A program made the position numbers and the translations under genes. A DNA stretch of 64,000 nucleotides from Pirellulales bacterium (lineage in GTDB: Bacteria > Planctomycetota > Planctomycetia > Pirellulales > JALHPA01), in NCBI GenBank assembly GCA_033762255.1, contig JANRLT010000014.1, positions 1 through 64,000 on the forward strand. The letters run 5' to 3'. The notes under the pieces are model-generated. The model saw only the letters and a list, made by a program, of their open reading frames with translations. It searched no databases and was not told the DNA's origin. The first letter of the stretch is position 1. Every line of letters starts with the position of its first letter. Shown here in pieces: positions 31,191 to 42,395 of this stretch.

Positions 31191-32207
31191 TCATAAAGAG
31201 ACGATCTGCCCGCTGGCCACGCTCGCTTCTTCCGCTTCGAGAATTTCCAGGCACTGCACTGGATCCTCTAGTGTTACCACCGTCGGTCGCTCCCCTGCGT
31301 GGATACAATCCACAAAATACCGCAATTCGCACAAATAACCGGTTTCCTCCGGCAAATGAATCGGCTGCAAAACCCCATTTTGGCTGACCTGCAGCGCGGG
31401 TGTACGACCCAGGCGATAATCCAAGGTGGCCTCCTCGCAATTAACGGTGTACGCCATTTCAAAGCCGAACCCCGGTGCCAGCGACCAGGACCCCTCCGCC
31501 ACGACCAGTTCCGGGCCGCTTCCCGCCGGATAGAGATACTGTGTCACCAAATGATCCACCGCGCCGCTGGTTTTGCTATACCCCCGGCTAAACACGCCCG
31601 CCGGCCTGCCAAACAGATAATACACAAAATCGGTGTCATGAATGTGCAAATCCAACAGCGCCCCGCCGGAAAGCTCTCCCTTGCTGTACCAACCCGCGGG
31701 CATGCTGGTCACCCGTCGAAACGTGGCGCTGCGCACCCGGCCATAGCGATTGGCCGTGATGGCATGTTTTAGCCACGCCCATTCCGGCCAAAACCGCAGG
31801 CACATCGCCGTCATAAACAGCCCCGGACTGGCCGCGGCCGCCGCCACCATTTGCCGCGCCGCCGCCGCTGTGCGGGCGAGCGGTTTTTCACACAATACGT
31901 GCTTTCCGGTCGCCAGTGCCGCCGCCACCAACTCGGGATGCGTGGGCGTGGCGGTGCAAATATCAATCAGTTGCAGTTCGGGGTTATTGAACACATCCGC
32001 CATCTGGGTGGTCCCGGTGATGTTGGTCATGTCCAACCGCTGTATCCCCGCCCCCAGGACGTTCCCCTCGGTCCCGACCATATTGCCGCTGGCCCGCTGG
32101 GGATTGCGGTCGCAGATCATGGTGACCTGGACATTGGGCAGCAGTTGGTACGCCTCAAAGTGCGTGCGGCCCATCATGCCCATACCGATAATGCCGACGT
32201 TGATCAT
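31191..32207 (-). CDS. Gfo/Idh/MocA family oxidoreductase
   Basis: This NAD(P)-dependent enzyme (338 aa) has the Rossmann signature NVGIIGMGMMGRTHFEAY and the family catalytic region ATGKHVLCEKPLARTAAAARQM, with the conserved EKP. Beyond residue 130 lies the alpha/beta domain with GGALLDLHIHDTDFVYYLFG, also characteristic. It oxidises or reduces a sugar or inositol-like substrate that cannot be told from sequence. The neighbours to the right on the same strand include a sugar isomerase-like gene, in keeping with sugar metabolism. The C-terminus (ASGQIVSL) looks complete. Confidence 0.93.
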   Translation of the reverse strand: MINVGIIGMGMMGRTHFEAYQLLPNVQVTMICDRNPQRASGNMVGTEGNVLGAGIQRLDMTNITGTTQMADVFNNPELQLIDICTATPTHPELVAAALATGKHVLCEKPLARTAAAARQMVAAAAASPGLFMTAMCLRFWPEWAWLKHAITANRYGRVRSATFRRVTSMPAGWYSKGELSGGALLDLHIHDTDFVYYLFGRPAGVFSRGYSKTSGAVDHLVTQYLYPAGSGPELVVAEGSWSLAPGFGFEMAYTVNCEEATLDYRLGRTPALQVSQNGVLQPIHLPEETGYLCELRYFVDCIHAGERPTVVTLEDPVQCLEILEAEEASVASGQIVSL

Positions 32208-32541: not shown

Positions 32542-33390
32542 CTAAGCCGCCGCTACGACCTTTGCAATTTTATCCACCGCGGTGCGAATATCCGCAATGC
32601 GCTGGTCCCCCGCCTCACGTTCGATCATCAAGTTCCCTTGAAATGCCTGCCGTTCCAAAATGCCAAAAAACCCATTCCAATTGACTTCTCCCTGGCCCAC
32701 GGGGACCTCGGTTCCCCATTCTCCCTTGACCGGCGAGCGGATCGCGTCCTTGATATGACAACTGCGCACATGGGGCAACAACAGCTCGAGCGCGGAGAGA
32801 GGGTCGCCACTGCCGTACAGGAGCATATTCGCGGGGTCAAAGTTGATCCCCACATTCGGCCGTTTTAATCGCTGTAAAAAAGCCAACAGCGTCTCCGCTG
32901 CTTCCTGGCCAGTTTCTAGGCAGATCACAATGCCGCGCGTGGCAAACAGATCCGCTACCTGGGTCATCCGGTCTAAAATTTTAGCATAGATCGGGTCGCC
33001 GGAATCAGGGGGAATAAAGCCCGCGTGCATCGTGATTTGGGTGATACCCGCCGAGGCGGCCAGCGGCAACACAGTTTGAAAATTCTTCCAACTGGCGGGC
33101 CAGGTCTCGTCGGGCAAGACGCCGCCGGTCCGGTGAATCGCCGCGATACTGCTATAGTCCTCACCCACGCAGCCGACCATGCCGCTGGCGATCTTGACTT
33201 CGGCCACGCGCAGGGCCTCCCAGCCGGTTTCCCATACGCGGGGTTGCTCGTGAAAGGGGTCCAGGGCTAATTGCACCTGGCCCAGGCCGATGTCGTGCGC
33301 GGCCTGAACCAAGTCCGCGGGGTGCCGGGGGCGAACCGACCAACTGCAAAAACCCAATCGTGGCTGTAACAGCATGAATTTGGTGTTCAT
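32542..33390 (-). CDS. Sugar phosphate isomerase/epimerase-like TIM barrel
   Basis: This protein (282 aa) is of the AP-endonuclease-2/xylose-isomerase-like TIM-barrel type. Blocks seen are ITQITMHAGFIPP, ICLETGQEAAETLLAFLQ (with catalytic Glu), VGINFDPANMLLYG, VRSCHIKDAI and GNLMIEREAGDQR (metal ligands). Members isomerise or epimerise sugars or inositol derivatives, usually with a divalent metal. The long open frame to 33564 reads through repeat DNA, so the ATG at 33390 (MNTKFMLLQP) is the likely start. It is beside an oxidoreductase of a family that often shares such pathways. Confidence 0.87.
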   Translation of the reverse strand: MNTKFMLLQPRLGFCSWSVRPRHPADLVQAAHDIGLGQVQLALDPFHEQPRVWETGWEALRVAEVKIASGMVGCVGEDYSSIAAIHRTGGVLPDETWPASWKNFQTVLPLAASAGITQITMHAGFIPPDSGDPIYAKILDRMTQVADLFATRGIVICLETGQEAAETLLAFLQRLKRPNVGINFDPANMLLYGSGDPLSALELLLPHVRSCHIKDAIRSPVKGEWGTEVPVGQGEVNWNGFFGILERQAFQGNLMIEREAGDQRIADIRTAVDKIAKVVAAA

Positions 33391-33443
33391 AACTTTGTTC
33401 GGGCTTAATATGAATTTAACCGCAACGCGGTTATGGAACGTAG

Positions 33444-33474
33444 CCCAGGGTTGCCGCGCAGCGGCTACCCTGGG
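33444..33474. repeat. Nested palindrome CCCAGGGT/ACCCTGGG, copy 2
   Basis: Outer arms CCCAGGGT (33444-33451) and ACCCTGGG (33467-33474) enclose GCCGC-gca-GCGGC. It is the same structure as at 18149-18179, and both are next to ACCGCAACGCGG-like phrases. Confidence 0.75.
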
Positions 33475-33584
33475 TAAGGATTGATATAAAAACACTATAC
33501 CGCAATGCGGTTTCGGAAGTTCGTTGCAGTTCAAGCAATGCCTTGGGAAATCCTTGCAAGGCAATCACCTGATTAACCTACTTA

Positions 33585-34751
33585 TCATAACGGATTCCAA
33601 CCCGCCTGGTACAACCCCGCTAGGGCCAGCCAGCCGGCGCTTTCCGCCGACACCGCCCCGGGCTGGTCCCACGCGTCGATCCGGATGTGATTGACCAATT
33701 GATAGAGTAAGTTCGCCCGTATCTCGCGCATTAACTCATCCGAAAACGCCGCATACCGGGTAAGCTCGCTTACCAAAACCAGCCGATTGGGCCGCATAAA
33801 GTTGACCGCATTGGCGATGCCCATGGCCAACAGCCGCAGCATCTGCCGCATCCGTTCGTCCGTCGGCGAATACTGCGCCGCCCGGTCAAACAGCGCGCTT
33901 TGCGACGTGGTTTCGTTCGCCGATTCCCATTCTTTGTTATGCGCCGCTTGGCCATTGGCGCCGCTGGCAGGCTGGTTTGCCGTCAAAAACGCCGAACTAC
34001 AGATACGCTCAAGGCAGCCGATATGACCGCAGTAACAAGGCTCGGTCTCGACCGGCAGTCGGGTATGTCCCAGCTCGTTCGCACCGGATAGACAACCGCG
34101 GTTGGGGCGACCGTCAATCAACATGGCCGCCCCCAAACGTCCATCCCCGGCATAGACCAACAGCACGTCTTCTCGCTCTTCGGCCAAATGCGTGAGCAAC
34201 CACCGCACCGCCAAGGCGTGCATGTCATTTTCAAAGACGATTGGTTTGCCCGCCGCGGCCGTAAAAATCCCCTCTAAATTCAAAGGATGCGGCGTTCGGT
34301 TGAGCGCGCTAAAGAGAATCGATTTGTTCGCCTGGTCTAAAAAACCCCGGGAACTGATGCCTATGGCCAAGGTTTGGTCCTTGACCGTCTGTCGTAGCAG
34401 CCGGGCCGCGGTTTGCAGGGCTTCCTGTGGCAAGTCCGTCGCCTGGACCTGCGATTTTCCCAGCATCTGGCCCCGTAAATTTAACCTGGCCAGTTCCACC
34501 TGCCCCTGGCCAAACGACAGGCCCAGCACGTGGCGGGTGGCCATGTCAATTTCTAATGGAATGCGGGGCCGCCCCTGGCCGACTGATTCGGGGGAGCCTT
34601 CCTTGAGAATGCCCAATTGCAATAGGGCCGCCGCTTCGCTGCCGATGGCGTTGGGATTCACGCCGGTCCGTTCGTGCAGTTCCCAGCGGCTGAGGCGGCT
34701 TTCGCGCCAAATTAAGCGTAAAATTTCTTTTTGGCGTAATTCCAGCAGCAT
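33585..34751 (-). CDS. ROK family transcriptional regulator (NagC-like)
   Basis: The protein (388 aa) has an N-terminal winged helix (LRQKEILRLIWRESRLSRWELHERTGVNP) and a C-terminal ROK sugar-binding domain. The ROK signature is clear in GCLSGANELGHTRLP and the zinc-binding CYCGHIGCLERICS. Such regulators usually repress amino-sugar genes and are relieved by a sugar phosphate. It is divergently transcribed from nagB, and the 220-base gap between them holds a candidate operator. The ATG at 34751 begins the helix-turn-helix; an in-frame start at 34820 would reach into the control region. Confidence 0.92.
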   Translation of the reverse strand: MLLELRQKEILRLIWRESRLSRWELHERTGVNPNAIGSEAAALLQLGILKEGSPESVGQGRPRIPLEIDMATRHVLGLSFGQGQVELARLNLRGQMLGKSQVQATDLPQEALQTAARLLRQTVKDQTLAIGISSRGFLDQANKSILFSALNRTPHPLNLEGIFTAAAGKPIVFENDMHALAVRWLLTHLAEEREDVLLVYAGDGRLGAAMLIDGRPNRGCLSGANELGHTRLPVETEPCYCGHIGCLERICSSAFLTANQPASGANGQAAHNKEWESANETTSQSALFDRAAQYSPTDERMRQMLRLLAMGIANAVNFMRPNRLVLVSELTRYAAFSDELMREIRANLLYQLVNHIRIDAWDQPGAVSAESAGWLALAGLYQAGWNPL

Positions 34752-34843
34752 GCGAATTAAATCCCTGGTTTTGAATAAAGCCGCCGCAATTTTAGCAGAA
34801 GATTCGCAGAAAACCAGCACTTTATGCGAATCAGAATTGACAA

Positions 34844-34865: not shown

Positions 34866-34971
34866 ACATTCGCATTTCAAAATTCCATTGGCGAATTCTT
34901 TGTGATTTGCACAATAAGGGTGGCCAACACCGCCACCCTGGGCCTATCTTTCTTTGCTGGAGCCGCACCGC

Positions 34972-36885
34972 ATGTCCCAACTTCCCCTGGCCACCGAACG
35001 CATTCCCGTTCAGGTTTTTCCACAATCCACCGCCGTCAACCGCGCCGTGGCCGCGGAAATTGCCCAATTAATCCGGGAACGTGCCCAGGCGGGACGACAA
35101 TGCGTCCTAGGTTTGGCCACGGGTTCCACGCCGACGGGCGTCTATGCCGAGTTGATCATGCTGCACCAGACAGAGGGGCTAAGCTTTAAAAATGTCATCA
35201 CATTCAACCTGGATGAATATTACCCAATGCAGCCGCTGGAACTGCAAAGCTATGTCCGGTTCATGCGGGAACATTTGTTCGACCATGTGGATATATTACC
35301 GGAAAACGTGCATATCCCCGATGGGACCCTCCCGCGCGAGGGGGTCAACGAATTTTGCCTCGACTACGAACGCCAGATTACCGCGGCGGGGGGGATCGAC
35401 ATTCAAATCCTGGGGATTGGCCGGACGGGGCATATCGGCTTTAACGAGCCAGGCTCGGGCCGCGACAGCCGCACCCGCATGATCACGCTGGACGGAGTCA
35501 CGCGGTTGGACGCCGCCAGCGACTTCTTTGGCGAACAGTACGTCCCCCGCCGGGCCATCACCATGGGCGTGGGGACAATTTTAGCCGCGCGGCGGGTCAT
35601 CTTGATCGCCTTTGGGGAACACAAAGCGCCGATTGTCGCCACGGCGGTCGAACAACCGATCACCGATGCCGTGGCGGCCAGCTTCTTACAGCTCCACCCT
35701 AACGCCACGCTGATGCTGGACGAAGCGGCCGCGGCGGAACTAGCGCGGGTTAAAACCCCCTGGCGGTTTGGCGTGGTCGAATGGTCCCCCACCATGATCC
35801 GCCGGGCGGTCATTTGGCTAGCTCGATTGCTAAACAAGCCTATCCTTAAACTGACCGACGAGGATTACAACGAACACGCCCTGCAGGACCTGCTCGCGGA
35901 TCATGGGCCGGCCTACCGGATCAATATCGATGTCTTTCGCACCCTGCAAGAAACCATCACCGGCTGGCCCGGCGGCAAACCCGACGAAAAGAAGCGGCCG
36001 GGGGATATTCGCCGCAAAACCGACACCATTTTTCCCAAACGTTGTTTGATCTTTTCTCCCCATCCCGATGACGACGTCATTAGCATGGGGGGGACGCTGA
36101 TTCGGCTGGTTGATCAGGGACACGAGGTGCATATCGCTTATCAAACGTCGGGCAATATCGCGGTCTTTGACGCCGACGCCCTGCGATTTGTCGATTTTTC
36201 CTTGGAATTTAATCGCCTGTTTCATATCTCCCCCGAACATACCCAAAGGATTGAACGGCATATTGAGGAATTTCTGCGTAATAAGCAGCCCGGCCAAGTG
36301 GACAGCCCCGAAGTCCAGCAAATCAAAGGGATGATCCGCCGGGGAGAAGCCCGCGCCGCCAGCCGCGATTGCCGCGTCCCGATGGACAATCTGCACTTTT
36401 TGGACATGCCCTTTTATGAAACGGGCAAGGTCAAAAAGAAACCGTTGGGTGAGGAAGACATTCTGATAACCCAGCGTCTGCTGGAGCAAATCAAACCGCA
36501 CCAGATTTACGCGGCGGGGGATCTGACCGACCCGCACGGGACGCACCGGGTTTGCCTGGCGGCGGTGCTGGCAGCGGTCGAGCGGGTGCGCGATCAAGAA
36601 TGGTTTAGCCAGTGCGAAGTTTGGTTGTACCGCGGCGCCTGGCAGGAATGGGAACCGGAAAAAATTGAAATGGCGGTTCCCATTAGCCCCGAGGAACTGC
36701 TGCGCAAGCGGACCGCGATCTTTAAGCATCAATCACAAAAGGACCGGGCCATGTTTCCTGGCAGCGATAGCCGCGAATTTTGGCAGCGGGCCGAAGACCG
36801 CAACCGCGCCACCGCCCGCCTGTACGACCAACTAGGCCTAGCGGAATACGAGGCGATCGAGGGGTTTGTGCGCTGGCGCGGCTAA
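34972..36885 (+). CDS. nagB: Glucosamine-6-phosphate deaminase fused to PIG-L-like domain
   Basis: This long protein (637 aa) has two domains. Residues 1-260 are a NagB-type deaminase, which converts glucosamine-6-phosphate to fructose-6-phosphate and ammonia. Blocks are VLGLATGSTPTGVYAEL, TFNLDEYYPM and LGIGRTGHIGFNEPGSG. In E. coli NagB the last block reads NDGHIAFNEP, so here the catalytic Asp is Thr. Residues 355-590 are a PIG-L/LmbE-type deacetylase-like domain with FSPHPDDDVISMGGTL and later DLTDPHGTHRVC, the usual zinc ligands. Long NagB proteins of this kind occur in planctomycetes and Bacteroidetes. The ATG at 34972 starts the family sequence; a ROK regulator is divergent. Confidence 0.92.
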   Translation: MSQLPLATERIPVQVFPQSTAVNRAVAAEIAQLIRERAQAGRQCVLGLATGSTPTGVYAELIMLHQTEGLSFKNVITFNLDEYYPMQPLELQSYVRFMREHLFDHVDILPENVHIPDGTLPREGVNEFCLDYERQITAAGGIDIQILGIGRTGHIGFNEPGSGRDSRTRMITLDGVTRLDAASDFFGEQYVPRRAITMGVGTILAARRVILIAFGEHKAPIVATAVEQPITDAVAASFLQLHPNATLMLDEAAAAELARVKTPWRFGVVEWSPTMIRRAVIWLARLLNKPILKLTDEDYNEHALQDLLADHGPAYRINIDVFRTLQETITGWPGGKPDEKKRPGDIRRKTDTIFPKRCLIFSPHPDDDVISMGGTLIRLVDQGHEVHIAYQTSGNIAVFDADALRFVDFSLEFNRLFHISPEHTQRIERHIEEFLRNKQPGQVDSPEVQQIKGMIRRGEARAASRDCRVPMDNLHFLDMPFYETGKVKKKPLGEEDILITQRLLEQIKPHQIYAAGDLTDPHGTHRVCLAAVLAAVERVRDQEWFSQCEVWLYRGAWQEWEPEKIEMAVPISPEELLRKRTAIFKHQSQKDRAMFPGSDSREFWQRAEDRNRATARLYDQLGLAEYEAIEGFVRWRG

Positions 36886-39171: not shown

Positions 39172-41790
39172 CTATTTACCTTCTGCTGCCTGTTTAGCGG
39201 CTTCCTCCAATTGACGGATATCCGCCGGTGTTAGCACCGGACGATTGATCGTCAGTGTGATATCGAGAAGCTTTCCAGTAAAGGCAAATGGCACTTTGTA
39301 ATCCGAGTCGTCCACGGGGGTGCCGGTGTCGGAGCCAACATCGAGATTTTCGTCCCATTGCAGGATGAGTGGTATTGTTCGTTCCATGGCATGTTCGGCC
39401 ACGACATTGCCGTCCACCTTCAAGGTGCCGAAGCCGCCGCGTCCCACCCCGCTCAAACTATTAAACGCCAAGGTCTCCATACCCAGGCCATCATATTTAA
39501 AGTCGAATTCCAGCGTGTGCTTTCCTGGCGCGAGCGATTCTTTACCTTCCCACTTTACCCGCATTAAATCGACCAAATTCCAGGTAAAGACAGGTTTACC
39601 TTCCAGCAGATAAAATCCGTAACCGCCAAACCGGCCCCCTTGGGTGATGAGGACGCCGGAAGCCCCATTTTCGGGCACTTCGATCTCGGCCACAAATTTA
39701 TAGGACGAGTTAAGAATACTGGGGGCGTCACCATTGGGAGTTCCCGTGAGGGGACGTTTCCAAGTAAAGACATTACGGCCAGCGGTGATGCTGGGGCGCG
39801 GGGTTATTAAGCGCGTGGCCACCGTGGAATCTAGCGGGAGAACATTGTACTTTTGCGCTTCTTGCCAAAAAATCGCTTGTAGTTCTTGTACTTTTTCCGG
39901 GTGCTTCTGGGCAAGGTCGTTTGACTGTGTCCAGTCACTTCGCAGGTCATACAATTCCCAGGGATACTCTGCTGGATTGGAGCCCACGCCTCCCATGACC
40001 ACCCATGGTGGACGCATGACCTTGGTGCTGGCGATCCAGCCATCATGGTAAATCGCGTGGTCCCCCATCATTTCAAAGTACTGCGTTTTTCGCGCGGACG
40101 GGGCGTCGGCGTTTTTCTGGTCAAAGGTGTACAGCATGCTGACACCTTGGATCGGCCGCTGGGGAATGCCGTCCACAACTTGCGGTTGGGAAATGCCCGC
40201 CGCCTCCAAAATAGTGGGAACAATGTCGATAAAGTGATGAAATTGATGACGCAGGCCCCCTTTGTCCTTGATTACTTTGGGCCAAGAAATAGCCATTCCT
40301 TGCCGTGTCCCGCCAAAGTGCGAAGCAACCTGCTTTGTCCAAGAAAAAGGCGTGCAAAACGCCCAAGTCCACGGCACGGTCATGTGGTTGTATGTTTGGT
40401 CCGACCCCCACACGTTGTAAAACCGCGCTAATTGCAATTCAATGGGCACCTGCACGCCATTAAACATGGCCACTTCATTAGGCGTGCCAAAGAGTGTCCC
40501 CTCCGCACTGCTACCATTATCCCCGCTGATATAAATGATCAGGGTGTTATCCAATTTTCCCATGTCCTCGACAGCTTGGATCACACGGCCGATTTCGTGG
40601 TCGGTGTACATTAAATAGGCGGCATACACTTCCACTTGCCGCAGATACATTTTCTTTTCGGCTTCCGTGCACTGGTCCCAATCTTTGAGCAGATCTTTGG
40701 GCCAGGGGGTGAGTTTGGCATTTTGTGGAATGACTCCCAGTTTTTTCTGGTTGGCGAAGATCCGTTCCCGCAGTTCGTTCCAGCCGTCGTCAAACAAGTG
40801 CAGGTCTTGGGCTTTTTTGATCCATTCCTGGGTGGGATGGTGGGGGGCATGCGTTCCGCCCGGTACGTAATACACAAAAAATGGTTGCTCTGGCGTTAGC
40901 GTGTTTATCTGGTTCATATAGCTAATAGCGTCGTCAGCCATCGCGGTTATCAAATTGAAGTTTGGATTATCTTTGAATGGATAAATGTAGGTCGTATTGC
41001 GGGCCAGATTGGCCGGTTGCCACTGGTTGGTATCCCCCCCCATAAAGCCATAGAAATATTCAAAGCCCATGCCAATTGGCCATTGATCAAATGGCCCAAT
41101 AGCGGTCGCTTGAAATGAAGGTGTGTTGTGGTTCTTGCCGAACCAGGAAGTACGGTAACCGTTATCCTTTAAAATTTTGCCGACGGTAGCCTGATCCCGC
41201 GTGATAATGCTGTTGTATCCCGGAAAACCCGTTGCTTGCTCCGCAATGACACCATATCCGACGGAATGGTGATTGCGGCCGGTGATCAGCGCGGCGCGCG
41301 AAGGAGAGCACAACGCCGTGGAATGAAAACAAGTATAACGCAAGCCGTTCTTGGCGATGCGGTCCAATGCAGGTGTGGGAATGACTCCCCCAAATGTGCT
41401 GGGTGCGCCGTATCCCACGTCATCCGTCATAATTAAGAGCACATTGGGAGCTTCCGCCGGTGGAACAATACGCGAAGGCCAGTAGGGCTTTGACTGGGCG
41501 GCATTCTTTTCGATCACACCTCCAAACGGGGCGGGGGGCGCGGGCAACTGTTGGCCAGAGATTGTGGTCGTGGCGTTAGGCGCGCCCGGTTGTCCGGTTG
41601 TTTGCGGCACAAACTTAGAGGATTGACCAGGCTCCGTTGTGGACTTTTCGGAAGTCACGGCGGGGCGCGATTTAGCCGGCAGTTGCGCAACAGCCTGTCG
41701 TGGGGGCATTCCCTGAAACCAAGCGGTGATCACGCCCAGCACCACACAGACTCCCACGAATGTCGTGCATTGTAATATCTTGTGTCTCAT
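39172..41790 (-). CDS. Arylsulfatase-type sulfatase, secreted
   Basis: This is a large sulfatase (872 aa from the ATG at 41790) that hydrolyses sulfate esters. It has a hydrophobic signal anchor (about residues 9-27), a Pro/Thr-rich stretch and then the catalytic domain beginning NVLLIMTDDVGYGAP (metal-binding Asp pair). CSPSRAALITGRN at about residues 161-173 holds the cysteine that becomes formylglycine. Further blocks WFGKNHNTP and YISGDNGSS complete the active site. The C-terminal 200 residues resemble a jelly-roll carbohydrate-binding-like domain. Planctomycetes carry many such enzymes for sulfated polysaccharides. No maturase gene is seen nearby. Confidence 0.93.
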   Translation of the reverse strand: MRHKILQCTTFVGVCVVLGVITAWFQGMPPRQAVAQLPAKSRPAVTSEKSTTEPGQSSKFVPQTTGQPGAPNATTTISGQQLPAPPAPFGGVIEKNAAQSKPYWPSRIVPPAEAPNVLLIMTDDVGYGAPSTFGGVIPTPALDRIAKNGLRYTCFHSTALCSPSRAALITGRNHHSVGYGVIAEQATGFPGYNSIITRDQATVGKILKDNGYRTSWFGKNHNTPSFQATAIGPFDQWPIGMGFEYFYGFMGGDTNQWQPANLARNTTYIYPFKDNPNFNLITAMADDAISYMNQINTLTPEQPFFVYYVPGGTHAPHHPTQEWIKKAQDLHLFDDGWNELRERIFANQKKLGVIPQNAKLTPWPKDLLKDWDQCTEAEKKMYLRQVEVYAAYLMYTDHEIGRVIQAVEDMGKLDNTLIIYISGDNGSSAEGTLFGTPNEVAMFNGVQVPIELQLARFYNVWGSDQTYNHMTVPWTWAFCTPFSWTKQVASHFGGTRQGMAISWPKVIKDKGGLRHQFHHFIDIVPTILEAAGISQPQVVDGIPQRPIQGVSMLYTFDQKNADAPSARKTQYFEMMGDHAIYHDGWIASTKVMRPPWVVMGGVGSNPAEYPWELYDLRSDWTQSNDLAQKHPEKVQELQAIFWQEAQKYNVLPLDSTVATRLITPRPSITAGRNVFTWKRPLTGTPNGDAPSILNSSYKFVAEIEVPENGASGVLITQGGRFGGYGFYLLEGKPVFTWNLVDLMRVKWEGKESLAPGKHTLEFDFKYDGLGMETLAFNSLSGVGRGGFGTLKVDGNVVAEHAMERTIPLILQWDENLDVGSDTGTPVDDSDYKVPFAFTGKLLDITLTINRPVLTPADIRQLEEAAKQAAEGK

Positions 41791-42395
41791 CAATGATCTC
41801 TTTGGTAAAAAGTGATTTCCTGAAAGCCGCAAATATACCTGAAAAAAATCAGCATGCTGTATATTTTAATTTTTTCAAATTAAAAATGTACTACCATACT
41901 CCAAATCTTCTTTCGCAAGTACGAGTTTTGGCAATCATTAAAAAGTAAATGTTACAATAACGCCATTCGGGAATATTGCAATAACTATTTAAAAGCCACA
42001 TTCAATAAAATACAATTATAATAAAAAAGTTGTTCGACAAATGCGCAATGCATATCCTGGACTTTGTTTACACGTGCTAGAGGAACTGGTTAGTAGGGCG
42101 CATCATAGGGGGAAGGAAATACTTGCCAAAGTTCTTCACCCGGCATTCACGCAGCTTGATTTTTAGCCCCCCATTATCTAGATGCTATCCTGGTAATACA
42201 GTCCGGGCTAATAAGAGGCACCGTTGAGGGATAGCCCCGACTAGGCTGCAAAACCGATTTGCGATAGGAAGTCATTCAATCTAATAAAACAAAGCCCAGC
42301 AACTAATAGCTTTACCCACGCGTTCCGCTGCGCGGTGGCAGATTAGCGAAATCCAAAATTCCCGCGCTCAGTTCCCCATCCCCCGTTCCCTCCTC
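41791..42395. other. AT-rich intergenic region, nothing recognised
   Basis: This 600-base gap upstream of the sulfatase gene is unusually AT-rich, especially about 41840-42050, and should contain that gene's promoter. No gene, hairpin or shared repeat was found. Confidence 0.5.

Follow-up and report, generated by a model that had tools for sequence, protein, structure and literature searches.

A NagB–PIG-L fusion protein from a planctomycete as a probable single-chain replacement for NagA and NagB, with Thr as an ordinary residue at the Asp141 site

In this study, we analyzed a 64,000-nucleotide stretch of planctomycete DNA (hereafter, the window) and identified a gene for a NagB–PIG-L fusion protein that is a member of a known, little-studied two-part family (NF002557). 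We consider it reasonably probable that the fusion is a cytoplasmic bifunctional amino-sugar-phosphate enzyme that takes GlcNAc-6P via GlcN-6P to Fru-6P, replacing NagA and NagB. Because MurQ produces GlcNAc-6P, a deacetylase fold is fused to a deaminase, and NagA is mostly absent, this reading explains the data best. In the proposed pathway, the C-terminal metal-dependent PIG-L domain would deacetylate GlcNAc-6-phosphate, and the N-terminal NagB domain, judging from its family and its intact active site, would isomerize and deaminate GlcN-6-phosphate to fructose-6-phosphate and ammonia. The chemistry would be performed by the equivalents of Asp72, His143, Glu148, and Lys208, while Thr, Ser, or Asn at the Asp141 position would be a tolerated variant beside the catalytic His. 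In the peptidoglycan recycling of many Bacteroidota, the fusion may take over the NagA and NagB steps that follow MurQ. For the planctomycete of the window, a role in an amino-sugar regulon under a divergently encoded ROK regulator is probable. The features discussed below are listed in Table 1.

Table 1. Positions of the fusion gene, its domains and motifs, and neighboring features in the window.
Feature	Position	Strand	Evidence or remark
Gfo/Idh/MocA oxidoreductase	31191..32207	-	Pfam; homologue near fusion in 5/80 other loci
Xylose-isomerase-like TIM barrel	32542..33564	-	Pfam; homologue near fusion in 5/80 other loci
Divergent ROK-family protein (PF00480), candidate repressor of fusion	33585..34820	-	Pfam, NCBIfam
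Perfect palindrome TTATTGTA-N6-TACAATAA	34844..34865	.	Between divergent ROK and fusion genes
NagB–PIG-L fusion gene, 637 aa	34972..36885	+	NCBIfam NF002557, Pfam
NagB (GlcN6P deaminase) domain, about residues 10–263	34999..35760	+	Alignment, structure match
Motif GIGRTGHIGFNEPGS, residues 148–162	35413..35457	+	Thr152 codon 35425–35427
PIG-L/LmbE-like deacetylase domain, about residues 355–637	36034..36882	+	Pfam, structure match
PIG-L metal/base motif HPDDD, residues 364–368	36061..36075	+	Alignment

Translation of the window gives the fusion protein from an ATG codon to the stop. A longer ORF from a TTG at 34954 is also listed, but the ATG at 34972 is the likelier start because GGAG lies 9 nt before it. 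Residues 7–636 match positions 25–651 of the 653-position NF002557 profile at 1027.5 bits (cut-off, 384), and the protein contains the Glucosamine_iso (PF01182; residues 19–230, 69.7 bits, above cut-off) and PIG-L (PF02585; residues 359–535, 65.4 bits against a gathering cut-off of 28.2) domains. It also passes the equivalog cut-off for nagB (TIGR00502; 252.9 vs. 236.9 bits). A 6-phosphogluconolactonase assignment (TIGR01198) was rejected, with 64.3 bits against an equivalog-domain cut-off of 124.45. The full-length match and an architecture common to 159 distinct proteins rule out a chance ORF or an assembly error as the origin of the fusion or its motif. Viral contigs contained no relative of the fusion protein (P0001), and PHROG matches were weak only. 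In the open-access PMC literature, we found no fusion of a GlcN6P deaminase with a PIG-L or LmbE domain and no bifunctional NagA–NagB, although either may be in print elsewhere.

Asp81, His154, Glu159, and Lys218 of the fusion correspond to Asp72, His143, Glu148, and Lys208 of E. coli NagB. In the PIG-L half, His364, Asp366, Asp367, and His525 are all present, both in a 41-sequence alignment and in the set of 159 fusions described below; His525, the third metal ligand, sits within DPHGTHR. The ligand and base roles were assigned after Table 1 of PMC4101496. An AF2 model built from 41 sequences (pLDDT 87.6, pTM 0.80) placed the N-terminal half on B. subtilis NagB (2bkv; Z 37.4, rmsd 1.1, 242 aligned residues), with other NagBs tying. 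The C-terminal half matched BshB (Z 20.7, rmsd 2.9, 209 aligned residues), diacetylchitobiose deacetylases (Z 19–20), and the hydratase GalB (5cgz; Z 18.9). Since a hydratase also matches, the PIG-L fold is no proof of deacetylation.

The solved PIG-L relatives, by sequence and fold, act on diacetylchitobiose or thiol precursors. Hence the NagB half might be an ordinary GlcN6P deaminase and the PIG-L substrate something else (another N-acetylated sugar, an amino-sugar conjugate, or a thiol precursor). The fusion would then pass one product on to the NagB step or simply bring two activities together. The distribution of the genes makes this alternative rather unlikely. Among 198 Bacteroidota genomes, the fusion scored above the cut-off in 77, NagA in 32, and MurQ in 141. 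MurQ was present in all 77 fusion carriers compared to 64 of the 121 other genomes. NagA was detected in 20 of the 77 carriers, which is compatible with a different PIG-L substrate, compared to 9 of the 16 genomes having only a stand-alone NagB (Fisher p 0.034; kinship ignored), and in 3 of the 105 fusion-free genomes outside the latter group. However, 57 of the 77 carriers encode MurQ with no NagA found, and GlcNAc-6P deacetylation would lack an enzyme there if the PIG-L half acted on another substrate; moreover, the synteny of the fusion is with MurQ, AnmK, AmpG, and NagZ. MurQ alone does not demand the fusion, since 45 Bacteroidota genomes with MurQ lack an NF002557 fusion and NagA as well as any stand-alone NagB at E 1e-40; two of these (G311 and G406) carry the second fusion family described below.

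The 32 NagA-positive Bacteroidota genomes were identical by HMM and by tblastn with B. subtilis NagA over all 198 genomes. The nagA searches at E 1e-25 missed the B. subtilis control genome, whose NagA nevertheless reaches 603 bits with this model; the Bacteroidota search was therefore redone with a second alignment (A2) and with tblastn, and the tool may miss matches. The A2 repeat covered 45 genomes, of which 10 were positive, and recovered the same 9 positives among the 31 shared genomes. Above the cut-off, nagA was found in 7 of the 31 genomes of fusion loci from genome contigs. We also rejected a Rosetta-stone idea, in which genomes with stand-alone NagB would encode a separate protein related to the fused PIG-L half: no such protein was found in 41 genomes, where the PIG-L-half search yielded only the gene of the window itself, members of the second fusion family, and some short hits to PIG-L. 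Passages of PMC5127042 report that deletion of nagB in the chitin locus of F. johnsoniae, a gene that may or may not be the fusion, had no effect, and that this species has three further nagB-like genes and a predicted NagA.

Of 246 Planctomycetota genomes, 23 carry the fusion, and 18 of these carriers have MurQ. NagA above the cut-off was found in none of the 23 carriers vs. 41 of the 223 other genomes (p 0.018; one search, kinship ignored), whereas NagA-like genes at 1e-25 showed the opposite direction (14 of 23 vs. 74 of 223, p 0.012; one search). In the window's own genome, MurQ was searched for and not found. This genome encodes a short NagA-like protein (L004; 154.5 bits, cut-off 225.65) and two more NagB paralogues (L002 and L003), and the fusion therefore need not be the sole route there. 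In two other planctomycete loci (L234 and L235, in two genomes), a short gene of the NagA-like type, about 300 aa long, adjoins a divergent NagB paralogue; in the window's genome, the two types occur on separate contigs.

Gene neighborhoods were counted in the 80 nearest loci, taking in at most 6 kb of flanking DNA; many of the flanks stopped short at a contig end. Near the fusion were homologues of NagZ (10 loci), MurQ, DeoR, and GHL10 (8 each), AmpG (7), AnmK (6), and ROK (3). A flavobacterial gene order, in which MurQ–DeoR is divergent from fusion–(GHL10)–AmpG–NagZ–AnmK, occurs in L096, L100, and L106–L108. All eight MurQ-linked loci among the 80 lie in genomes with no nagA match reaching 40 bits. 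By eye from the coordinates, the fusion lies within 10 kb of MurQ in 8 of the 77 Bacteroidota carriers, against 0.49 expected from a rough model. Speaking against the proposed replacement, a fusion directly adjoins nagA in L091 and G343. Passages of PMC10199937 place murQ, nagB, ampG, and deoR at one locus of a Bacteroidota symbiont and do not mention a fusion, and those of PMC5583593 treat nagA and nagB as separate genes. In the window, the best NCBIfam matches of the ROK protein are Mlc/NagC regulators, below cut-off, and the protein is likely the repressor of the fusion gene. The palindrome is a candidate operator: its pattern has one match in the window, where 0.11 would be expected with up to three mismatches. 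It was absent from the other fusion loci searched, with matches only in copies of the window's own gene, and an operator motif common to fusion loci was rejected. A large sulfatase-like protein, which matches arylsulfatase models below their cut-offs, is encoded at 39172–41832 (-). The Phycisphaeraceae loci L046 and L051 have an operon-like arrangement of a ROK regulator, the fusion, and a stand-alone Asp-type NagB, which likewise counts against the replacement of NagB by the fusion.

The preliminary description had reported a NagB–PIG-L fusion with Thr in place of Asp141, and translation, Pfam, NF002557, and an alignment to 1cd5 confirm this: Thr152 lies opposite Asp141 of E. coli NagB (1cd5), which we take to be a catalytic residue in that enzyme. 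It had further supposed that the change may be typical of the long NagB family and proposed aligning the family at this site. The alignment bears this out, with Thr in 112, Ser in 29, Asn in 18, and Asp in none of 159 distinct fusions. This set was derived from 163 loci by removal of four duplicates and comprises 22 Planctomycetota sequences (that of the window among them), 77 of the top 80 genome-contig matches, and a Bacteroidota sample of 60 hand-chosen from the NF002557 match list. Neither HPDD nor HHDD was present in 48 aligned rows, of which three are decayed-PIG-L fusions and 45 are stand-alone NagBs. The latter, mostly picked via best NF002557 hits and a motif pattern and thus a non-random NagB sample, have Asn in 24, Asp in 17, Thr in 2, and Ser in 2. 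In a NagB-domain tree (143 rows; SH-aLRT only, with long-branch warnings), the residue states cluster, and the direction of change is not given.

Thr at the Asp141 site is thus ordinary for the fusion family. The preliminary description had suggested altered chemistry from the change. On the strongest form of such a reading, deaminase chemistry would be altered or abolished, and the NagB domain would have turned into a lyase, a different isomerase, or a sensor of GlcNAc-6P. The complete absence of Asp from the fusions and the separate Asp-type NagB beside the fusion in L046 and L051 are compatible with such a change, as is the placement of Asp141 among the residues binding the allosteric activator of E. 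coli NagB in passages of PMC4281351. We nevertheless regard it as very unlikely, since stand-alone NagBs more often have Asn than Asp, B. subtilis NagB, whose PDB entry is titled 'Structure and kinetics of a monomeric glucosamine-6-phosphate deaminase', itself has Asn by alignment, and the fusion retains the remaining catalytic residues and passes the nagB equivalog cut-off. Thr152 was accordingly rejected as a mark of changed chemistry: the site is Thr, Ser, or Asn in every fusion and mostly non-Asp in the stand-alone NagBs. Asp141 of E. coli NagB is unusable as a marker of deaminase activity.

The equivalents of Asp72, His143, Glu148, and Lys208 are kept in 158 of the 159 fusions, the PIG-L metal ligands and base Asp in 156, and every counted catalytic residue of both domains in 155, including the window protein. 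The PIG-L base Asp is replaced by Ala in L170, L172, and L174, and a metal His additionally by Tyr in L172 and L174; L186 has Ala at the Asp72 equivalent and an intact PIG-L site. The genomes of L170 (G382), L172 (G444), and L174 (G393) contain another fusion, and that of L186 (G440) contains a stand-alone NagB. Decay of one domain where the genome also holds an intact copy is consistent with two activities that can be separated. That one domain of the window protein is a non-catalytic passenger, as the decayed members might suggest, is scarcely credible given the 155 intact fusions and the other fusion or stand-alone NagB in the genomes of the decayed copies. The coupled deacetylase–deaminase that the preliminary description had offered as the other possibility gains indirect support from the intact sites in both domains, the gene neighborhoods, and the co-occurrence with MurQ where NagA is often missing.

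The PIG-L-half search and the fetched regions also revealed a second, divergent and unannotated NagB–PIG-L fusion family of approximately 745–800 aa (L128–L135, L223, and L227–L233). Two of its proteins were tested; they scored 206–229 bits against NF002557, below the cut-off, and were also below the Pfam cut-offs. The motif GIGPDGHI(G/A)FN(V/I) occurs in 16 rows, some of which are one gene fetched twice. In this family, Asp141 is kept, Glu148 is replaced by Val or Ile, and the PIG-L motif is HHDD. Its genes adjoin a canonical NagB (L133) or sit near one (L223), and lie beside or near MurQ in L227, L229, and L232. It is quite possible, and we propose it tentatively, that NF002557 is a single-chain NagA-plus-NagB, that the GlcNAc-6P deacetylase missing from many Bacteroidota is its PIG-L half, and that the second family, with the opposite triad change, is a further solution. 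On that reading, the second family would probably serve as a deacetylase, with a NagB half of altered role, alongside a canonical NagB encoded separately. If the bifunctional reading is true, the second activity goes unannotated in a protein present in 77 of 198 sampled Bacteroidota genomes, and pipelines wrongly leave the GlcNAc-6P deacetylase step as a gap.

We saw nothing that distinguishes the window protein from the NF002557 family (NF002557/PRK02122, 'glucosamine-6-phosphate deaminase-like protein'), whose function is only 'like' by name and which has Thr, Ser, or Asn at the Asp141 site throughout. The NagB domain is about 40% identical to the monomeric B. subtilis NagB (2bkv/2bkx), with which it shares GRxGHIGFNEPG and the lack of Asp at the Asp141 site; the B. 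subtilis enzyme differs in having Asn instead of Thr and no PIG-L domain. E. coli NagB (1cd5/1dea) resembles the fusion in fold (Z 37.1) and in the equivalents of Asp72, His143, Glu148, and Lys208, but it is hexameric and allosteric, has Asp141 where the fusion has Thr, and is not joined to a PIG-L domain as the window protein is. The PIG-L/LmbE deacetylases BshB, MshB, and diacetylchitobiose deacetylase share the fold of the C-terminal half (Z 17–21) and its His-x-Asp-Asp plus His ligand/base set. Sequence similarity to the solved deacetylases is confined to about 45 residues, and the PIG-L half of the fusion is distinct from these enzymes in being joined to NagB.
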